Shown here: positions 13,094 to 30,139 of the stretch, one piece after another
Position numbering within the stretch: position 1 is the stretch's first letter
Layout: the number at the start of each line of letters is the position of its first letter
IMG/VR virus record: IMGVR_UViG_3300015263_000958
Coordinates: 1 to 33,465 of that record
Length of the DNA: 33,465 bases
From: a virus
Strand: one strand, 5' to 3'
Translations under genes and position numbers: made by a program
The notes under the pieces: generated by a model
The model's input: the letters and a program-made list of their open reading frames with translations, nothing else
The model's database searches: none
Told to the model about the DNA's origin: nothing

Positions 13094-14110
13094 TTACGCC
13101 GTGTTCCCGACCGCGCACTCGATGCGGGTCATGAAGTTGTCGTTGAGGATCAGTTCGGTCCCCGTCCGCTTCCAGCCGATGGTTCCGACCTGATTCAGGG
13201 GGTCTGCCGGGCCCGCGGTGCCGCGGGGGTGGATGATGTTCTCCAGCGACATATTGTCGAGGGGAACCGTCCCGACCGCCTCGCGCGCGAAGATGAGGAC
13301 CGTGTGGACGTCCGCGAGGCCGCCAGTGCTCTTGGCGTTCGAGGAGTCGAAGCTTCCGCCACCACCGGGGTAGTTCTTGGCCTGCGTGGACTCGATGAAG
13401 CGGATGTTCTTGTACGCACCGCGCTCCGCCTCGTGGACGGGGCCCTGGCTCGCGTACTTCGCGACGGGTTGCCACCCGCTCGACTCGAGTTTGTCGAGGT
13501 CGAAGATGACTTCCGGCGTGGTGATCGCCCACAGCCCAGGACGAACCGGGGCGGTGGAGACGCGATCCGAAGCCGAAATCATCTGGTTGAAGTACTTCGC
13601 GTTCTGTTGGCCGAAGTACCGGATGACCTGATCGAGCAACGCGGTGCTGATCTTCTGCGTTGCGCCCAGGATCGCGCCGCGGTTCGCGGCGTTGCCACCG
13701 TAGAACACCGAGGTACCGGCGGCGAACTTGTCGCGTTGGAGCGCGTCGAGGGTCTGGCCGGTCTGCTCCGCGAGGATTTGCGTCCCCTCACGCAGCACGT
13801 CGGACTCGACGATGGCCTGCACGAGGTCCGAGGCCGTGATGTAGTCGCCATACTGAGCGAGGACGGCGCTGATGTCGGTCTTCGACAGCGAGGAGCCGGT
13901 CGGGGTCACGCCCTCGGTGAGAGGCGTGGTCGCGAGGCTCAGTGCGTTGAAGCGCCGAAAGACGATCTGGTTACCCGATCGACCCTTCAACGGCTTCTTC
14001 TGGGACACCATGCCGTGCGCCAGGTAGGGCGTCGCGCGCATGAGCAGCCCGCGGTTGAACCAGCTGGTTACTGCCGGGGGTACGTTGCCAGTTCCGGTAA
14101 GAGCACCCAT
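13094..14110 (-). CDS. Major capsid protein, N4-gp56 family type
   Basis: The 338-residue product has the hallmark segment of the N4-gp56 capsid family, LTEGVTPTGSSLS followed by AVLAQYGDYITASDLV, at about residues 65-100. The E-rich helix after it (REGTQILAEQTGQTLDALQ) and the C-terminal beta region (GTIGWKRTGTELILND) agree with an HK97-like fold. The length is normal for the family, and no N-terminal delta domain is evident. A separate scaffold gene lies immediately upstream. ATG 14110 has AAGGAGACAGAC upstream. Hairpins lie on both sides of the gene, so strong, separately tuned expression is likely. Confidence 0.92.
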   Translation of the reverse strand: MGALTGTGNVPPAVTSWFNRGLLMRATPYLAHGMVSQKKPLKGRSGNQIVFRRFNALSLATTPLTEGVTPTGSSLSKTDISAVLAQYGDYITASDLVQAIVESDVLREGTQILAEQTGQTLDALQRDKFAAGTSVFYGGNAANRGAILGATQKISTALLDQVIRYFGQQNAKYFNQMISASDRVSTAPVRPGLWAITTPEVIFDLDKLESSGWQPVAKYASQGPVHEAERGAYKNIRFIESTQAKNYPGGGGSFDSSNAKSTGGLADVHTVLIFAREAVGTVPLDNMSLENIIHPRGTAGPADPLNQVGTIGWKRTGTELILNDNFMTRIECAVGNTA

Positions 14111-14156
14111 GTCTGTCTCCTTGATCTCTCTCGACGCGGTATGCTCTCAACCGCCG

Positions 14157-14163
14157 TTCTATA
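14157..14163 (-). promoter_or_regulatory. Possible late minus-10 element before the capsid gene
   Basis: On the minus strand this reads TATAGAA, 47 bases upstream of the capsid start. The same heptamer occurs on the minus strand at 19951-19957 just before the small-terminase candidate, and in both places CGTT lies 15-16 bases upstream. Two occurrences ahead of two key late genes suggest a late promoter, but no recognisable minus-35 accompanies them. Confidence 0.3.
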
Positions 14164-14165
14164 CT

Positions 14166-14185
14166 CCACGTTATCAGAAACGTGG
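14166..14185. other. Hairpin between scaffold and capsid genes
   Basis: CCACGTT at 14166-14172 pairs perfectly with AACGTGG at 14179-14185 around a 6-base loop. On the plus strand it is followed by TTTTA, so it could act as an intrinsic terminator for antisense (rightward) transcription. On the minus strand it lies in the capsid leader and could protect or process that mRNA. Which role applies is not determinable from sequence. Confidence 0.5.
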
Positions 14186-14198
14186 TTTTAACGCAAGC

Positions 14199-15128
14199 CT
14201 AGTTCCCGTAGATCCGGCGCTCCCAGGCGCGGTACTCGTCGTCCGACATGCTGTTGATCGTGTCGACGTCGAGTTTCTTCGTCGGCGTCTTGCTGGGCCG
14301 CGTGACCTTGCCGCGCAGCTGGGCCGCGCCCTTCTTTGCGGCCTCGTCGATCTTCTTCACGATGTCCTCCTCTCCCTTGGCTCGGGCCTTCATGGAGTTG
14401 CGGATCTCGTTGAAGGTCTTCGCCGGATTTCCGCCAAACCGCTCGCTCATCTCGCGGATGAACGCGAACGTGTAGCGAGCAACCGCGGGGTCTTTGGACG
14501 CATCGAACATCCGACGCAGGTCAGGATTCGCGGCCTCCAGGTCGGCGACGTGGCGCGAGACCATGGAATCGTAGTCGTTGCCGTCGCCCATGTTCGTCAC
14601 CGACAACTCGCCGCGGGCGCGCTGCTCGGAGGCCACGCGAGCCGCGTCCAGCGCGACTTGCGCCTGGAACGCCTGCTCGTCGCGAGCGCGCTCCCAGCGC
14701 ATGTACTCGATCATGTCGTCGACGGTCTGGAGTTTGTCGCGCGGCTTGGGCGGCTGATCGGAGACCGCGGCCTTCGCGGGATCGCGGAGAGCACCCGACA
14801 GCTTCGCCTCCAGGTCGTTCGCTCGCCGCTCCGCGCGCTCGAGGCGGTCGAGCACCTCGCGCGGGATGGAAGAAGATGGGGAGGACTCCGCGGCCGAGCC
14901 CGCATCATCGCCCTCCCCGCTCGCGGGGGAGGAGGCCCGCGACTCGTCGCCTTCGCCTTCGCTGGCGTCGGCACCCTCGTCGGCGGCAGCTTCGCCGCCC
15001 TCGTCCGCTGACGGCTCGTCCTCGCCGAAGCCCATGTCGACTTCGTACGAAGCGTCCGCCGAAACGTCGTTACCGGATTCTACGTGCTCGCCCGGCTGGG
15101 CACGGTCTTCGCCTGCTTCGAGTGCCAT
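14199..15128 (-). CDS. Scaffolding protein
   Basis: The 309-residue protein has the composition expected of a capsid scaffold. Residues 1-85 are extremely acidic and disordered. Residues 90-110 form a coiled coil (REVLDRLERAERRANDLEAK). A helical middle follows, and the C-terminus is basic (about residues 245-275, KGAAQLRGKVTRPSKTPTKK). Scaffolds typically use such a basic helical C-terminus to contact capsid protein. It lies between portal and capsid genes, the canonical position. ATG 15128 has GGAGGAGATCAC upstream. No protease motif is seen, so the scaffold is probably released intact. Confidence 0.85.
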   Translation of the reverse strand: MALEAGEDRAQPGEHVESGNDVSADASYEVDMGFGEDEPSADEGGEAAADEGADASEGEGDESRASSPASGEGDDAGSAAESSPSSSIPREVLDRLERAERRANDLEAKLSGALRDPAKAAVSDQPPKPRDKLQTVDDMIEYMRWERARDEQAFQAQVALDAARVASEQRARGELSVTNMGDGNDYDSMVSRHVADLEAANPDLRRMFDASKDPAVARYTFAFIREMSERFGGNPAKTFNEIRNSMKARAKGEEDIVKKIDEAAKKGAAQLRGKVTRPSKTPTKKLDVDTINSMSDDEYRAWERRIYGN

Positions 15129-15152
15129 GTGATCTCCTCCTACGTTCTTGTA

Positions 15153-17213
15153 TCAGAACGGTGGTTGATTTCCAATCCCTGGGGGCTGCGGCGCCGCCAC
15201 CGCCCCACCCTCCGGCCCTTCGCCGGCTGGACCCGGCTGCGACCCGGTGTCGCGCAGCGGCACGCCGCCGCCGGGCTGGCCCTGCTCGTGGTCCTGTAGC
15301 GACTGCTGGAGCCGTTGCCCGTCCGCGGCGGAAATGAGCCCGGCCTTGGTGGCCGCGGCGACGAGCATGTCGGGCGGGACCGGAACCTGCTTCGCGAAGT
15401 CGAGGAAGTTCTGGAACACGGCCTGCGACTGCGTCGCGTCGAACGGCTTGATGGTGACAACGACGTCGTAGTCGATGCTGAACGCGCGCGACAGGAGACG
15501 CTCGACGTCGGCCGAGTCGGCTTCGCGCATCGGCGCCAGTGCCTCGTCGTTCTGGTTGCGCGGATCCGAGGCGAGCAGGCCGAGGATGCGATACGCCTGG
15601 GCGGCGGTCATCTTGTCCTTGATCATTCGGGCCAGGAGCCGCGTCACCTCCGTCATCTCGTCCGCGAAGGTGTCGAAGAAGATGTTCTGCGTCAGGAGCC
15701 CGCCGCGCTGGCGTGCATTGATCGCGCGCCCACTGACAGTCACTTGGTTCGTCTGGCCGAGCAGTTCGTCGTTCACGTTCACCGACTGGTGGATCTCCGC
15801 GTCGGCCTGCTTCTCGAGGTAGATGAGAACTTGCGGGATCTCGTCGGGGTCGATCTTCTTGGGCATCTCGGTCTCGTACTCGATCACCACGCCGGCGCCG
15901 AAGGCGTAGTTCTCGATGTCAGACCGATCCGCGCCGCCAGTCTTCTTATTGTAGAAGCCACTGTGCGCGCCGCGGGACGCCATCTCGGTGATGGCCGAGC
16001 GGCGCTTGTTCTTCTCGCGCTGCGGATCCTTCATCACGTCGGCCATGCCGAAGGGCAGCTGCCAGAAGTACAGGCCGAGTGACGGGTAGAAGCCGTAGTC
16101 GTCGAAGGGCAGTTCGGAGTCCTTGTCTTCGAGTAAGATGTTGTCGAGCAGGTACGCGCAGCGGCAGGACTCGACGGGCCGGCGCACGATGCGAACCAGA
16201 TCGCCCTCCTTCTCGCCCATCTCCTCCATGACCTGGCGCAACTGATCCATCTCGTCGGGATCGGAAATGACCTCGCCGTCCTTGAAGACCGCGACCGGGA
16301 CGGTGATCGTCTCCTTGTACTGCACCTCGAGAATCCGCACGCGCTGCGTCTGGGGATCCCAGAAGTCGCGCCGGATCGCCTGCGAGTCGCCCGCGAGTTC
16401 GCCGCGGCCCTGGACGCTCTGCGCGCCGGTGGGGCTCAGCCATTCGCCGAAGCGGGAGCGAATCTGCTCCTCGTACTCGGGCCAGGCGGCAATGGCCTGC
16501 TCGAGCGTGTACCACTGCGCGAAGATCACGTACTCGCAGTCGGCCCATTCACACTCGGGCCAGTTCGGATCCCAGAAGACGTTGAGCGGGTTGACGCGGG
16601 TGCAGCGGATCTCGCCCTGCGGCTTGCGTCGGTAGTCGTACCAGAAGCGCCAGAAGCCGAGGCCGGAGTGGATCTTGTCGAGGAAGACCTTCGAGTCCTC
16701 GCGCGGCATTCGGTTCTTGTCCCTCACCCACTTCACGAGCGCGCCGAAGACGCGGGCGCCCTCGTTGTCGCCGGGCTCGTACCCGACCAGTGCGGTCTCC
16801 TGCTTCGCGTCGCGCTGCACGCCACTGATCGTGAGCACCGGCGAGAGCATCTTGTTGATCACGAGGCGCGGGCGGCCGCCGTCCTCAGTGTCGAGGATCG
16901 ACTTGTCCTCGTCGCTCCACTGATCGTTCGAGAGGAACTTGCAGTTCTCGATGTAGGCGTTGCGCCACTTGACGCTGGCCTCACTCGACTGCTTCCACCA
17001 GCGGTGGATACGGTCGATGAACTGCTTGGTCTCGAGGATCTCCCCCAGCGAGCGGGAGTCCGCGTCGGCCCCGCCAGAGCCGGCGTGGGCGTCGGGCTTG
17101 TTCGCCAGGTTGTCCGCGACGGCCGGGGCCTGGGAATCGTCAGTGTAGCGGCCGCGGCGCTTCTTCCTGGGGGCAGGGGCGGGGGTGCGGGGGGAGGTCT
17201 TCTTCTTAGCCAT
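15153..17213 (-). CDS. Portal protein, P22-like type
   Basis: The 686-residue protein begins with a basic disordered tail. The portal core then follows: IDRIHRWWKQSSEASVKWRN, LSNDQWSDED and RLVINKMLSPVLTISG, a pattern of P22-type portals of about 700 residues. Middle elements are FWRFWYDYRRKP and VNPLNVFWDPNWPE. The helical stem and crown regions follow (NRKNQ-type helices from about residue 400 to 600), and the C-terminus is Gln/Pro/Gly-rich. It forms the dodecameric DNA gateway that receives the terminase. It follows the terminase gene after a 36-base gap. ATG 17213 lies close to GGAAG, with AGGG further upstream. Confidence 0.9.
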   Translation of the reverse strand: MAKKKTSPRTPAPAPRKKRRGRYTDDSQAPAVADNLANKPDAHAGSGGADADSRSLGEILETKQFIDRIHRWWKQSSEASVKWRNAYIENCKFLSNDQWSDEDKSILDTEDGGRPRLVINKMLSPVLTISGVQRDAKQETALVGYEPGDNEGARVFGALVKWVRDKNRMPREDSKVFLDKIHSGLGFWRFWYDYRRKPQGEIRCTRVNPLNVFWDPNWPECEWADCEYVIFAQWYTLEQAIAAWPEYEEQIRSRFGEWLSPTGAQSVQGRGELAGDSQAIRRDFWDPQTQRVRILEVQYKETITVPVAVFKDGEVISDPDEMDQLRQVMEEMGEKEGDLVRIVRRPVESCRCAYLLDNILLEDKDSELPFDDYGFYPSLGLYFWQLPFGMADVMKDPQREKNKRRSAITEMASRGAHSGFYNKKTGGADRSDIENYAFGAGVVIEYETEMPKKIDPDEIPQVLIYLEKQADAEIHQSVNVNDELLGQTNQVTVSGRAINARQRGGLLTQNIFFDTFADEMTEVTRLLARMIKDKMTAAQAYRILGLLASDPRNQNDEALAPMREADSADVERLLSRAFSIDYDVVVTIKPFDATQSQAVFQNFLDFAKQVPVPPDMLVAAATKAGLISAADGQRLQQSLQDHEQGQPGGGVPLRDTGSQPGPAGEGPEGGAVAAPQPPGIGNQPPF

Positions 17214-17249
17214 CTTCCAAACCCTGTTCTAACTCTAGCACAAACGGCC

Positions 17250-18674
17250 TTAACTCGCCATCCAACTGCGCCTAGTTCGGCGCCGGCGCGAGGCGAGCGG
17301 GTTAAGTTTCGGTAGAGCCGCCCTACCTTCGAGAATCTGGTCGGGGTCCGTTGGGAGCTTACGTTCGGTGATCTTGAACTCCCTGGTGGCGATGTACTCG
17401 GCGCAGTTGACTAGGTGCGAGTACTCGTTCTTGAAGGGCTGCGCCCCGATGCGCCCGTCGCGGCCCTTGGGGTAGCGGTAGGCGCCCAGCATCGCCTCGG
17501 TGAAGATCGGGCACCCCGTACGCGAGACGACCATAGCGGGCTTACCCAGTACGTTGCGCTCAAGACGCTGCTTCATCGCCTCCTTGCGCGGCACCCAATC
17601 GCGGGCGCCGGGCTGGATGTCGAAGCCCTTCGAGGCCGCGACCGCGGTGGCGGTGGTCAGGTCGGACTCCGCGCGGCGCGAGCCCGATGGATCGCCCCAG
17701 CCGCGGATGCCGTAGCCGGGGTAGTACTCGTTCAGCATCGACCGCAGGTAGTCGGAGTGCGAGTCGATCGCGCTGTTGAACGACTGCAGTTCGCGCAAAC
17801 AGCGCCACTGCCCCTCCGGCGTGATTTGCGTGATCAGCGTCGCGGGCGTCAGGCCGTAGTCCCAGCCGAGCACTAGGTCGACGCCGGGGATCGGGTCGAT
17901 CAGGCCGTCGATGACGTTCCAGTGATCGCGGAACTCGGGGTAGACGCGCTCGCCAGGCCAGAAGGCGACGACCTCGCCCTCGACGAAGCGACGAGCCTGA
18001 TCCGCGTCGAGGCGCTTCTTGATGTTGTCGTAGTAGCCCTCGCGCAGGTTCTTCTCGTTCTCGCGCGGCGGTTGCCACACCACGCAGTAGCCGCGGTGCT
18101 CGAGGTCTTCCTTGCTCGGTTCGATGAACTCCGAGTACGCCCAATGCGAGGGCGTCGGCGGGTTGAAGGTGAGAACGATCGTGAAGCGGTGCGCGCCCTT
18201 CTGCCGGAGGCGCATGTTCACCATCGTGAAGACCTCTTTCGGGAGGCCGGCGCCCATTGTGCCGCTCTGCTGGTAGGCGGGGACGACCTCCTCGAGCCAC
18301 GCGAACGAGAACTCCGTCGACATGAACTTCTGCACGTCCTCGGGGCGCTGCGCGGAGCGGAAGAACAGCTGGTGCTTGAGGGGCTTCCCGTGGGGGCCGG
18401 GAAGCGTGACGACGGCGATCTTGTCTTGCTCGCGCCACTCGGCGATGTCCGAGAACCACTCCATGAAGGTGGCCTTCGTGGAGTCCATCAGTTCGCGGTA
18501 GCTCTCGCGGACGACCACGCCGCGCACGGGCACCGGCGACTCGAGGCACTGGAAGATGAACTCCCAAGCGGCGGCGGAGGACTTGCCGGAGCCGACCGGG
18601 CCCCAGAGCACCTTCACCTCGGCGTTGCTCTCGTGGAACGGGATGACGGACTCGTTGGGATTGTATGGGTCCAT
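17250..18674 (-). CDS. terL: Terminase large subunit
   Basis: The 474-residue packaging motor has the ATPase Walker A GPVGSGKS at residues 25-32, the Walker B FSFAWLEE at 122-129 with its catalytic Glu, and the coupling motif TFNP at 169-172. The nuclease domain starts with the acidic GWDYG (Asp272), continues with GWGDPSGS near residue 320, and has a further acidic/Asn motif (KNEYSHLVNCAEY) near 420. These are the RNase H-like metal ligands. The length is normal for the family. ATG 18674 overlaps the stop of a small upstream frame. It would cut and translocate DNA at the portal encoded just downstream. Confidence 0.95.
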   Translation of the reverse strand: MDPYNPNESVIPFHESNAEVKVLWGPVGSGKSSAAAWEFIFQCLESPVPVRGVVVRESYRELMDSTKATFMEWFSDIAEWREQDKIAVVTLPGPHGKPLKHQLFFRSAQRPEDVQKFMSTEFSFAWLEEVVPAYQQSGTMGAGLPKEVFTMVNMRLRQKGAHRFTIVLTFNPPTPSHWAYSEFIEPSKEDLEHRGYCVVWQPPRENEKNLREGYYDNIKKRLDADQARRFVEGEVVAFWPGERVYPEFRDHWNVIDGLIDPIPGVDLVLGWDYGLTPATLITQITPEGQWRCLRELQSFNSAIDSHSDYLRSMLNEYYPGYGIRGWGDPSGSRRAESDLTTATAVAASKGFDIQPGARDWVPRKEAMKQRLERNVLGKPAMVVSRTGCPIFTEAMLGAYRYPKGRDGRIGAQPFKNEYSHLVNCAEYIATREFKITERKLPTDPDQILEGRAALPKLNPLASRRRRTRRSWMAS

Positions 18675-21989: not shown

Positions 21990-22763
21990 ATGCTCGACCT
22001 CGACCTCAAAGACTACGACCTGATCGTCGTGAACAGTAGCGGCGGCAAGGACTCCCAGGCGATGCTCCACATCATCGCGACCGCGGCCCGCGACGCTGGC
22101 GTGCTCGATCGCGTGATCGTGGCGCACGCTGCGCTGCGCGAAGAGTGGCCTGGCACGATCGAGATCGTGAAGGCCCAGGCGGCCGCGTATGGTGTGCCAG
22201 TCGAGATCGTGCGGCGCCGGCAGGGCGACTTGCTTGAGCACGTCCGCGATCGCGGCAAGTGGCCCGACAGTCAAGCCCGCTACTGCACAAGCGATCACAA
22301 GCGGGCCCAGGTCGACCGCGTGATCCGCGCCCGATCGAAGGACGGGGGCCGCGTGCTCAACTGCCTGGGCATCAGGGCCCAGGAGAGCACCGCACGGGCC
22401 AAGAAGCCCGCGATCGAGAGAAACACGCGACTGTCCACGCGTACGCGAGAGGTCACGAACTGGTTCCCGATCTTCCGCATGACGGAGGCCGAGGTGTGGG
22501 CGACGATCCGCGAGGCGGGGACGCCTAGCCACCGCGCCTACTCCCTCGGGATGCCGCGACTGTCTTGCATGTTCTGCGTTTTCGCGCCCCCCGCGGCACT
22601 GATGCTCGCGGGCCGGGAGAACCCTGAGTTACTGTCCGAGTACGTGGCCACTGAGCGACTGATCGGCCATCGGTTCCGCATGAACCTGGCGATCGAGGAC
22701 ATCGCGAAGGCCATCGCAGCCGGCGCGAAGCCGGCAGAAGAGGTGTCAACGTGGACGATGTAA
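21990..22763 (+). CDS. PP-loop ATPase, PAPS-reductase / DndC-like family
   Basis: The 257-residue protein has the adenylating PP-loop SSGGKDS at residues 16-22. Family elements follow: VIVAHAALREEWPG, then RYCTSDHKRAQVDR, CLGIRAQESTARAK and a CxxC in LSCMFC. This family binds ATP and activates a carbonyl or sulfate for sulfur transfer or reduction. Relatives include PAPS reductase and the DndC enzyme of DNA phosphorothioation. No DndD/DndE partner is visible here. The neighbouring Cys-rich gene is a candidate partner. Its length is close to the bare catalytic domain, without the C-terminal extension of DndC. ATG 21990 follows GAGGGG. Confidence 0.88.
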   Translation: MLDLDLKDYDLIVVNSSGGKDSQAMLHIIATAARDAGVLDRVIVAHAALREEWPGTIEIVKAQAAAYGVPVEIVRRRQGDLLEHVRDRGKWPDSQARYCTSDHKRAQVDRVIRARSKDGGRVLNCLGIRAQESTARAKKPAIERNTRLSTRTREVTNWFPIFRMTEAEVWATIREAGTPSHRAYSLGMPRLSCMFCVFAPPAALMLAGRENPELLSEYVATERLIGHRFRMNLAIEDIAKAIAAGAKPAEEVSTWTM

Positions 22764-27291: not shown

Positions 27292-27315
27292 CACTTTCTC
27301 CTTCTCGGGCGCTTA

Positions 27316-27445
27316 GGCAGACACGGCAGACGCGTTTCCCAAAAGAGTTTTAAGAAAAAAAAAACGTAGTATTCACGGGGATTCGACCTTTTTTCAAAAC
27401 TTTTGGAGTTCCAAAACAGGCGTCTGCGCGTCTGCCGCGTCTGCC
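27316..27445. repeat. Long inverted repeat with CGTCTGC iterons, candidate origin
   Basis: GGCAGACACGGCAGACGCG at 27316-27334 and CGCGTCTGCCGCGTCTGCC at 27427-27445 match as inverted repeats at 18 of 19 positions. The right arm has CGTCTGC three times at 8-9 base spacing (27421, 27429, 27438), and the left arm carries two more in the opposite orientation. Between them are A- and T-tracts (A10 at about 27355-27364, T6 near 27389) in otherwise GC-rich DNA. The repeat lies just after the primase-helicase stop, where D5/P4-type replicons often keep their origin. Transposon-end and attachment-site explanations are less likely. Origin function is inferred. Confidence 0.7.
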
Positions 27446-27475
27446 CCAGAACCCTCGATGTGTGGGAGTTTGCCA

Positions 27476-30139
27476 TCAGAATGGGAGCCCGTCGCTGGTC
27501 TCGGTTGGTGGCCGCCCCGGCTCCGGGTTGGTCCAGTGGAGCCCGGGTCGCACCCTCACCCCGATGACCATACGCGTGCATCGCTTGCCCTTACGGGCCC
27601 GCGTGACGCCGCGGGGGAGCAGGGCGTTGGTCAGGCCCGCCTGCTGGCCCACAGCGGGCTTCCTGCGCTCGGAATCGCACCATTGCAGGTACGTGGCCCA
27701 GACCTCGGCCACGGTGGCCTCGTGCTCGGGGTCGAAGTCGAGGCAGGCGTCCGCGAAGTCGGCGAGCCAGTCGGACGCGTCGAGGTACTCGTCGGTTGCG
27801 TCGCGGACGCACGAGGGGGGCCGGAGCCCCGTCGAGTACCACTCCACCGCCCCCCGCACCGCCCAGGCCAGGATGCCTTCCGCCTCGCCGGCCAACTTGC
27901 GGTCGAGGTTCCCGTCAGGCTTGCGGGTGGCGTCGTAGTAGAACCGCACCCGGAGGCACCGCCGGCGGATCGCGGCGTCCACGTCGGGGGGCAGGGGCAG
28001 CTGGTTGCCGACGATCCACAGCTTGGCCGTGGGGAAGAACAGGTCGCGCTCCTGGTAGAGCTTACGGGCCCGCATGGTGTCCCCGCCCGTCAGTTCCTTG
28101 ATGAAGGCCACGTTCAGCTGCCCGTGCTGGGTTTCGTCGGCGAGGACGAAGCGGGCCCCCGGGAGGCTGGCCGCCAGGCGCTCGCGGTCCTGCTGGTTGC
28201 CCCGCCTCACCACGATCGCGGTCTCGGGTAGCTTCTCGAAGAAGCCCTCCATGATGCGCTGGATGGCGCGGACGAACGTGCCCTTGCCGTTGCCCCCCGA
28301 CCCGTGGAGGAAGAAGAACACCTGATCGCGGATCGAGCCCGTGAGGGTGTAGCCGGCCGCGCGCTGGAGGAAGCCCCGCAGGTCCGCGTCGCCGCGGGTC
28401 ACCTGCTCGAGGAACGCGTCCCACAGGGGGGCCTCGGCGGCGGGGTCGAACGCGATCCGCGTGCCGCGGGAAAGGAGTAGCTCGGGCGCCGCGGCCACGA
28501 GCACCCCCGACCGTAGGTCCACGATGCCGGTGGGGGTGGGCAGTAGGTGCTCGTGCTGGTCGAACTGCGTCGGCTTGCGCCAGAAGGCGCGCTCGTGCGT
28601 CATGGCCTTGATGACGCTCGTGATGCCGGTGGTGCTGCGGAGGCGCAGGATCCGCTTCGCCTGCTCTTGTTCGATCGCGGTGTCGACGTTCGCGCGGACG
28701 AAGTCTGCAATCGCCCGCCAGGCCCCATCCCCCCCCAGCCCCTCCCCTTCCCACAGTCCTGACGCCTGGTTGTAGGAGAGCCAGGTGTCCTGGGCCGGGA
28801 GGTAGGCGAGGCGGGAGGAGTCCCGCCCCGCAATGGCTTCCGCAACGCCGACGTCGGTGAGGTCTAGTGGGTCTTGCTGGGATCCACCGGAGTCGTGAGC
28901 ATGTCCGCGATCAGCGCGTCCGCTTTCCGCCACTCGATCACCAGCGTCGCAATGTCCTGCGCCAGTGTCCACGCTGTCTCCAGCGTCAGCGGCACCGCCA
29001 CCACCCGCACCAGTTCCTTCCCCTCCGCCGCTGCCGCATCCACCTTGGCCTGCTCCTCCGGTGTCTGTGGCTCCTTCGCTTCCTTGTTCGGGAGCACGAT
29101 CGAAATCCAGACGGTCCCCGGCATCACTTCTTTCGTCACCGGGTTCTGGAACCCCACCCCCAGGTAGGGGATCGAGGCCACGGCCGGCGCGCCCAGGCTC
29201 CCCACCTCCGCCTTCGCTGCCGGCGGATCGCCTAGCTGCAAGGAGCGTGGCGGCGGCTTGTTGCTCGGATCTTCTTTCTCGTCGCTCATCTTGACCTCCT
29301 GTGTCGTCGAGCGTTGGTAGCTCGGGTTTACGAGCGGCCGCTTCCTCGGCCGCGTCCATGATCCTGCGGATCTCCTTCTCCTCGACCCCAGCGCGGCGCG
29401 CGGCGGCGAGGATGACGTTCCTGACCTCGATCGGCTGGAGCGCGCCGGCGTAGGCGAACTGCATGAGCCGGTAGCACTCGGCGTTGAGCGTCGGCCGCCG
29501 CTTGCCGGGGCCGGCCTCTTGGATGCGCTTCTCGCAGTTCTCGAGCGCGTGCCTGACGTAGGCCGTGACGCGCTCCCCGACCGTGGCGCCCGCGTTGGGC
29601 TTGATCACGGGGGCGCGGCGCGGCGCGCTAGCCAGCGCCTCCTCGAGCCAGGTGGGGATGTTCGGCAGGGGGCGCTTCCAGGGCGGCGTCATCCACTGGT
29701 AGGTGCCCCCGGCCGGGTGCTCGCTCGGGGGCAGGACGACGTAGCCGCCGGTGGTCCGCACGTCCACGCCGGGGAGGCGCTTGACGCTATTCCTAATGTT
29801 GGAATTTGGATCCCACGCAAAGTAGGAATGCGCGCCGTTGGCGGTGCGCGCCATCGGGCCGGGGTTCGGTGCCCCGGGGCCCTCGTGCTCGTGGAGCAGC
29901 TTCGTCCACGAGTCCGCCCCCGCATCGCCGTCGAGGTCGACGACCAGCACCCCGGAGGGCTCGCCGCACGCTAGCGCAATGCCGAAGCCCTCCTCCCCCC
30001 ACCACCCCTCCAGCTGCTCCTGGTCGCGCGTAGCGTCCTTAACGCCGTGCGAGCAGGCGGGGATCTTCCCTAGCACCGGGAACACCCGCCAGCCGAGGCC
30101 GTTGGTGTAGTACTTGGCGGCCTTGAGGATTCTGTTCAT
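27476..30139 (-). CDS. Primase-polymerase / SF3 helicase fusion (D5-like)
   Basis: The 887-residue frame combines two modules. Residues about 1-175 are a PrimPol-type primase: GWRVFPVLGK, then the metal-binding VVDLD (Asp68, Asp70) and GAHSYF (His104), with a PriCT-like helical domain to about 280. Residues about 427-887 are a D5_N domain (VGVAEAIAGRDSS) plus an SF3 helicase with Walker A GSGGNGKGT (613-621), Walker B LADET (Asp668, Glu669) and sensor WIVGNQLP. It would initiate and unwind replication forks. Residues about 284-426 form a Gly/Asp/Ser-rich linker that is overprinted by a nested gene. Without it the protein would be about 745 residues, a normal length. Whether it is made as one chain or as two proteins is unresolved. 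Confidence 0.85.
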   Translation of the reverse strand: MNRILKAAKYYTNGLGWRVFPVLGKIPACSHGVKDATRDQEQLEGWWGEEGFGIALACGEPSGVLVVDLDGDAGADSWTKLLHEHEGPGAPNPGPMARTANGAHSYFAWDPNSNIRNSVKRLPGVDVRTTGGYVVLPPSEHPAGGTYQWMTPPWKRPLPNIPTWLEEALASAPRRAPVIKPNAGATVGERVTAYVRHALENCEKRIQEAGPGKRRPTLNAECYRLMQFAYAGALQPIEVRNVILAAARRAGVEEKEIRRIMDAAEEAAARKPELPTLDDTGGQDERRERRSEQQAAATLLAARRSAGSEGGGGEPGRAGRGLDPLPGGGVPEPGDERSDAGDRLDFDRAPEQGSEGATDTGGAGQGGCGSGGGEGTGAGGGGAADAGDSVDTGAGHCDAGDRVAESGRADRGHAHDSGGSQQDPLDLTDVGVAEAIAGRDSSRLAYLPAQDTWLSYNQASGLWEGEGLGGDGAWRAIADFVRANVDTAIEQEQAKRILRLRSTTGITSVIKAMTHERAFWRKPTQFDQHEHLLPTPTGIVDLRSGVLVAAAPELLLSRGTRIAFDPAAEAPLWDAFLEQVTRGDADLRGFLQRAAGYTLTGSIRDQVFFFLHGSGGNGKGTFVRAIQRIMEGFFEKLPETAIVVRRGNQQDRERLAASLPGARFVLADETQHGQLNVAFIKELTGGDTMRARKLYQERDLFFPTAKLWIVGNQLPLPPDVDAAIRRRCLRVRFYYDATRKPDGNLDRKLAGEAEGILAWAVRGAVEWYSTGLRPPSCVRDATDEYLDASDWLADFADACLDFDPEHEATVAEVWATYLQWCDSERRKPAVGQQAGLTNALLPRGVTRARKGKRCTRMVIGVRVRPGLHWTNPEPGRPPTETSDGLPF
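28864..29289 (-). CDS. Nested gene overprinted in the primase-helicase linker
   Basis: The 141-residue product is read in a different frame on the same strand, inside the primase-helicase frame. ATG 29289 has a perfect AGGAGG six bases upstream (AGGAGGTCAAG). By hand count about 120 of its 142 codons end in G or C, against roughly half for the long frame in the same interval, so this frame carries the coding constraint. The protein is ordinary in composition (IPYLGVGFQNPVTKEVMPGT, then VWISIVLPN and LETAWTLAQDIATLVIEW). No family is recognised. It ends at the point where the helicase D5_N domain begins, suggesting that a separate gene was inserted or arose here. Function unknown. Confidence 0.75.
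   Translation of the reverse strand: MSDEKEDPSNKPPPRSLQLGDPPAAKAEVGSLGAPAVASIPYLGVGFQNPVTKEVMPGTVWISIVLPNKEAKEPQTPEEQAKVDAAAAEGKELVRVVAVPLTLETAWTLAQDIATLVIEWRKADALIADMLTTPVDPSKTH

Follow-up and report, generated by a model that had tools for sequence, protein, structure and literature searches.

Organization of the primase-helicase locus

In this study, the window refers to the whole of the 33,465-nt virus record IMGVR_UViG_3300015263_000958, a metagenomic contig from an uncultured phage. The minus strand of this window carries an 887-codon ORF with a second, much shorter ORF nested inside it, and the features of the locus are collected in Table 1. The 887-residue protein matched the Pfam families Prim-Pol (E = 3.7e-36), D5_N (E = 3.6e-15), and DUF5906 (E = 3.1e-8), as well as phrog_1156 (DNA primase; E = 5.5e-101, residues 7–865) and TIGR01613 (215 bits). 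The catalytic DxD and SxH motifs of Prim-Pol are present as VVDLDGD and PPSEH, and D5_N and an SF3/AAA+ core with a Walker A motif were found in the same ORF as Prim-Pol. By these domain and motif criteria, the predicted product is a member of the Prim-Pol/D5 primase-helicases (phrog_1156). The 90-residue gene immediately upstream had no match in PHROGs.

Table 1. Features of the primase-helicase locus
Feature	Position	Strand	Remarks
Upstream gene, 90 residues	30136–30408	minus	Stop overlaps the primase-helicase ATG (ATGA)
Primase-helicase ORF, 887 codons	27476–30139	minus	Prim-Pol, helical C-terminal domain, linker, D5_N, DUF5906/AAA+ helicase
Prim-Pol primase/polymerase domain, residues 10–164	29648–30112	minus	Pfam PF09250
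Shine-Dalgarno AGGAGG of the nested gene	29295–29300	minus	5-nt spacer to ATG; read from the sequence
Long-frame linker, residues 284–425	28865–29290	minus	Gly-rich, acidic, apparently dual-coding with the nested gene; composition, AF2, charge
Nested gene, 141 residues	28864–29289	minus	+1 frame relative to primase-helicase, wholly inside it; ATG preceded by AGGAGG
Candidate internal helicase start, in-frame GTG, residue 390	28970–28972	minus	GGAG 5 nt upstream; weak
D5_N domain, residues 441–581	28397–28819	minus	Pfam PF08706
DUF5906/AAA+ helicase core, residues 611–726	27962–28309	minus	Pfam PF19263 and alignment; Walker A GSGGNGKGT

An AlphaFold (AF2) model of the primase-helicase, run with 30 sequences, had a mean pLDDT of 77. 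Residues 1–302 (primase) and 423–868 (helicase) were ordered, and residues 303–422 had pLDDT values below 50, a disordered stretch that coincides with the nested gene. The linker consists of 27% Gly and 7% hydrophobic residues and is predicted to be a disordered tether between the two folded halves. The initial annotation had placed the beginning of D5_N at the stop codon of the nested frame. This was borne out by the model, in which the helicase fold starts from about residue 424, and by the LTDxGNA motif conserved in relatives, which aligns just past the nested stop.

Several features were observed elsewhere on the contig. Just downstream of the primase-helicase ORF (27307–27454), a 28-nt imperfect inverted repeat (82%) surrounds a 92-nt stretch in an AT-rich dip, with 44–46% GC versus 66% overall, and might serve as a replication origin or in regulation. 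A phosphoadenosine phosphosulfate reductase-like gene (21990–22763, plus strand; phrog_424, E = 1.5e-41) is a possible auxiliary metabolic gene. The head module (13094–18674, minus strand) encodes a terminase, a portal protein (phrog_156), and a major head protein (phrog_1357). It is distant from that of isolates, with the portal showing about 25% identity to those of Microcystis and Ochrobactrum phages and the capsid at most 35%. Judged from its sequence, the phage belongs to a little-sampled lineage.

A complete ORF nested in the linker

The initial annotation had described a 141-residue frame, with ATG and a perfect Shine-Dalgarno sequence, inside the 887-residue ORF but in a different frame. 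Its coordinates, frame, start codon, and Shine-Dalgarno sequence were all found to be correct, and the presence of an ORF nested in the primase-helicase linker is confirmed. This ORF begins at nucleotide 851 of the long frame (a +1 shift) and covers residues 284–425 of the latter; it thus lies entirely within a second gene, is read in another frame, and has its own start signal, as is characteristic of embedded genes. A +1 ORF of this length starting from ATG arose in codon-shuffled linkers with P = 0.034.

The coding signal changes frame at the nested ATG and reverts at the nested stop. Of the 142 nested codons, 120 end in G or C (GC3 0.845), the same number as had been counted by hand, and the proportion in the long frame, earlier put at roughly half, is 0.46 within the linker, compared with 0.90 before and 0.93 after it. 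A codon model gave a coding score of +31 to the nested frame and −49 to the long frame in this region. When the 28 same-strand nested ORFs of at least 50 codons in the predicted genes of the window were surveyed, the nested-minus-host difference in coding score was +83 for this ORF and −27 for the next best, none of the other 27 outscoring its host frame. The frame-specific coding signal of the nested ORF is above chance.

Codon usage gave the same picture. For synonymous usage, the nested gene (0.24) is inside the range of the phage genes (0.33, sd 0.11) and the linker (−0.41) inside that of shadow frames (−0.33, sd 0.10), in agreement with the earlier view of the linker as a shadow frame. 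RSCU of the nested gene correlated with that of the phage at a Spearman coefficient of 0.71, against 0.07 in the linker frame; the primase and helicase parts on either side gave 0.81 and 0.87, respectively. Hydrophobicity of the nested protein is ordinary (0.284 vs 0.277 for phage genes). No slippery heptamer was obvious by eye around the nested stop. Taken as a gene, the nested ORF is very probably real.

Primase-helicase as a probable fused protein

Among relatives of the D5 helicase, an ORF of at least 650 residues was found at 160 of the 179 loci with a helicase match, and the annotations of Kurnik, Pumpernickel, AcaML1, Caron, JNU_P9, and Peas show Prim-Pol and D5 in a single ORF. In some relatives (loci L012, L047, L010, and L163), primase and helicase are encoded by separate, neighbouring ORFs. 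The spacing between Prim-Pol and D5_N is 114–229 residues in the fused relatives and 277 residues here, or about 135 once the length of the nested gene is subtracted. Screening of the D5 relatives for interior off-frame coding revealed no convincing signal.

It had also been stated that no in-frame start with a Shine-Dalgarno sequence serves the helicase alone. From residue 270 to residue 512, the long frame contains neither ATG nor TTG, leaving GTG codons at residues 390 and 403 as the only candidates. Taken literally the statement does not hold, as the former has GGAG 5 nt upstream; however, chance alone would yield 0.29 such sites per 142 codons, which makes this GTG a weak candidate, and a separate helicase start there was not accepted.

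The long frame stayed open through such a gene by chance in 11–27% of trials; openness alone therefore proves little. The primase has no stop codon of its own, so that, provided the contig is correct, a fused protein must result. Neither reads nor a second contig cover this region independently. A 16.7-kb contig of the same metagenome (L013; IMGVR_UViG_3300015263_000392) is near-identical and lacks the region, having no primase-helicase match; its terminase is 100% identical, so that the phage was indeed seen in metagenome 3300015263.

The initial annotation had left two alternatives, one protein with an overprinted linker or two proteins that open reading happens to connect. The first, a single fused protein overlapping the nested gene, is favoured by the predominance of single-ORF relatives, the lack of a helicase start above chance level, the disordered linker, and the wobble bases apparently constrained by the linker (see below); accidental open reading is weaker but retains some probability, given the split pairs in relatives and the frequency of chance openness. 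The primase-helicase fusion is probably real.

Searches with the nested protein

The nested protein fell into no family of Pfam, PHROGs, or NCBIfam; matches to DUF6879 (E = 0.02–0.05) and phrog_16288 (E = 0.3–0.5) covered short stretches and were taken as chance. No relatives were found in phages, plasmids, and PDB, in IMG/VR searched with peptides and a degenerate motif, or in 699 genomes of two phyla plus 4 others. A match in a Rhodococcus plasmid (E = 0.03) was discarded, the stretch containing a stop codon and not being annotated as a gene. The host gene, too, had only distant relatives, the nearest at about 30–48% over segments, and in searches for close relatives of the whole locus, using primase and helicase queries against IMG/VR and a genome scan, the best match was about 48% over a short segment. 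AF2 modelled the nested protein alone with low confidence (pLDDT 54) as a disordered N-terminus followed by a strand-strand-helix-strand-helix arrangement, and a fold search with this model returned nothing. Coupling to a replication gene suggests a possible accessory replication function; our guess would be a factor made in a fixed ratio to the primase-helicase.

Wobble bias of the nested gene and charge of the linker

At four-fold sites of the nested gene, G rather than C was used at 48 of 58 positions, with G/(G+C) of 0.81–0.83. In other genes of the phage this value is 0.27–0.65, and in a comparison set of 928 GC-rich genes from other loci the maximum was 0.72, none reaching the nested gene. 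Considering only wobble positions followed by G, the nested gene had 0.88, compared with a maximum of 0.78 among 842 genes. This wobble bias is present and lies outside the range of the comparison genes.

In the nested gene, G was chosen before A at 18 of 21, before C at 12 of 14, before G at 28 of 32, and before T at 2 of 7 sites; the corresponding fractions in phage genes are 0.48, 0.56, 0.33, and 0.46. A wobble G before A, C, or G turns long-frame His/Gln, Pro, and Arg into Asp/Glu, Ala, and Gly, respectively, whereas before T it merely swaps Val and Leu. G-preferring phages likewise avoid G before T, so the contrast with T is not specific. Two-fold Glu and Lys codons do not show this preference for G (GAG 0.67 vs 0.84; AAG 0.70 vs 0.93), and CAG was used in 5 of 5 cases. 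Being absent from Glu and Lys, the bias is unlike a general preference for G-ending codons.

The consequence for the linker was assessed from its charge, expressed as acidic minus basic residues, under context-aware phage codon usage applied to the synonymous choices of the nested protein. About −13 was expected and +12 was found, i.e., the linker is more acidic by about 25 charges (z = 6.0, for a statistic picked after the linker had been inspected); shadow frames of 35 other genes had z values from −2.5 to 1.9 (maximum 1.86). The linker contains 14 Arg and Lys residues versus 29.7 expected, and its second half 3 Arg versus 16 expected. The result persisted when the minus-strand genes or the flanking primase and helicase alone served as the reference, and was seen in each half. 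When the nested gene was shuffled within its own codon pool, the excess fell to z = 2.0 (P = 0.03; other genes, mean −0.75, sd 1.0), indicating that the charge signal rests mostly on the G-for-C bias. This bias could reflect selection on the linker, acquisition from a donor whose codon usage is unusual, or emergence of the gene on a Gly/Asp linker that was ancestral. The synonymous choices of the nested gene favour translation of both frames; for mutual adaptation of the two frames, the chances appear about even.

Proposed explanation

We consider it probable that this one stretch of DNA gives rise to two proteins, the fused primase-helicase and the nested protein. Ribosomes starting from position 30139 would make the 887-residue primase-helicase, consisting of Prim-Pol, a helical C-terminal domain, the tether, and the D5_N/AAA+ helicase, with the tether formed by approximately 140 disordered residues rich in Gly, Asp, and Glu. 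Other ribosomes, starting at the strong internal AGGAGG-ATG of the same mRNA, would make the 141-residue protein in the +1 frame.

The likeliest history would be that an established small gene came into the primase/helicase junction in a phase in which its −1 shadow was poor in stop codons and low in hydrophobic residues, so that the fusion stayed open. Later wobble changes from C to G in the nested gene may then have made the shadow read Gly, Asp, Glu, and Ala instead of Arg and Pro. We are less confident in this order of events and in the selection step than in the two products, and both might prove right or wrong with about equal chance. The full proposal is put forward tentatively, with the odds somewhat against it. 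It holds that the junction between the domains of a replicative primase-helicase took up a small gene, whose silent positions were then adjusted until its DNA also specified an acidic glycine tether. In more general terms, the −1 shadows of ordinary genes in GC-rich genomes would contain few stops and few hydrophobic residues, so that genes could enter multidomain proteins as ready-made linkers.

The direction of overlap bears on this history. The initial annotation had called the linker overprinted; the dual-frame overlap holds, but the direction may be the reverse, with the nested frame established and the linker, by its codon usage, the shadow. Pavesi et al. (PMC3744397) take as ancestral the frame that keeps the codon usage of the genome, although this criterion can fail for horizontally acquired genes. 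Applied to the RSCU correlations of 0.71 (nested gene) and 0.07 (linker), it identifies the nested frame as ancestral; de novo overprinting would have left the host frame nearer to genome usage than the nested frame, the opposite of what was found. The same values, together with the linker GC3 of 0.46 and the ordinary hydrophobicity of the nested protein, speak against classical overprinting with two products, in which the nested gene would have originated de novo in the +1 frame of a long, ancestral Gly/Asp/Glu linker and would owe its G-ending codons to linker codons starting with G. This alternative would account for the G-for-C wobble without later tuning and for a nested protein lacking detectable relatives, and the relative Pumpernickel has a long acidic linker at the same place; we regard it as unlikely, though the strongest of the competitors.

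Only slightly less probable, as an alternative to the selection step, is a recent acquisition of a real nested gene from a genome preferring G-ending codons, the linker being an untuned shadow tolerated as disordered. Some codons of the nested gene are indeed odd for the phage (ACA 0.30 vs 0.03, GAT 0.50 vs 0.15, AAA 0.30 vs 0.07), and G-preferring phages reach 0.72. However, 0 of 928 genes reached the G preference of the nested gene, the preference does not extend to two-fold Glu and Lys codons, a donor was not found, and a modest charge excess survives the own-codon shuffle.

An arrangement of three cistrons, with primase, nested gene, and helicase separate, the long frame open by chance, and the helicase starting at the GTG of residue 390 or another weak start, appears improbable. 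Split pairs in relatives, the frequency with which the long frame stays open by chance, and the GGAG preceding this GTG are compatible with it; nevertheless, the fusion would be made regardless, the primase having no stop of its own, the helicase would begin with 36 shadow residues from a start at chance level, and the bias from Arg to Gly/Asp is not predicted. Two compensating indels, from assembly error or in a pseudogene, could instead enclose what is an ordinary in-frame middle domain of a single protein. This is conceivable for a metagenomic contig lacking independent coverage, but a perfect Shine-Dalgarno-ATG and a stop at the two frame switches, with both frames open for 142 codons, make it very improbable.

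Comparison with known systems

The nearest known arrangement to that proposed here, two products from one stretch, is Rz1 in Rz. In the embedded spanin genes of the phage lambda type, a complete same-strand gene in the +1 frame, with its own start, lies inside another and both proteins are used; loss of a stop codon with read-through past the next gene is a proposed route to embedding (PMC6139136). Rz and Rz1 are paired lysis proteins, whereas here the host gene encodes a replicative primase-helicase and the nested gene lies in its interdomain linker. Gene E in gene D of phiX174 exemplifies the general class of internal overlaps, with one gene wholly inside another (PMC8227390). That phage has a very small, compressed genome, in contrast to the 33-kb contig here with its single convincing case.

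Fused Prim-Pol/D5 proteins of the P4 type, such as those of Micrococcus phage Kurnik and a Thermaerobacter plasmid, have the same domain order in one ORF. Unlike the present case, fusions of the Kurnik type have no convincing off-frame coding signal at the junction, and their Prim-Pol to D5_N spacing is shorter. Gene 4 of phage T7 (4A/4B) also encodes a primase-helicase fusion with a linker, the helicase alone being produced as well by initiation at an internal in-frame codon; the GTG at residue 390 might act alike, as a candidate only. The T7 helicase belongs to a different superfamily, and its gene is not known to contain an out-of-frame nested gene. The literature searched contained no report of a nested gene inside the linker of a phage primase-helicase.

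Nested genes in alternate frames are already known; what sets the present case apart is the site, exactly within the tether that flexibly joins the halves of an essential replication enzyme. A single genome here carries a signal suggesting that the silent sites of a nested gene answer to a second frame. If true, this would represent a route for inserting a gene without breaking a multidomain protein, and a test based on codon choice could reveal overlooked nested genes in GC-rich phages, which are normally discarded by gene callers.
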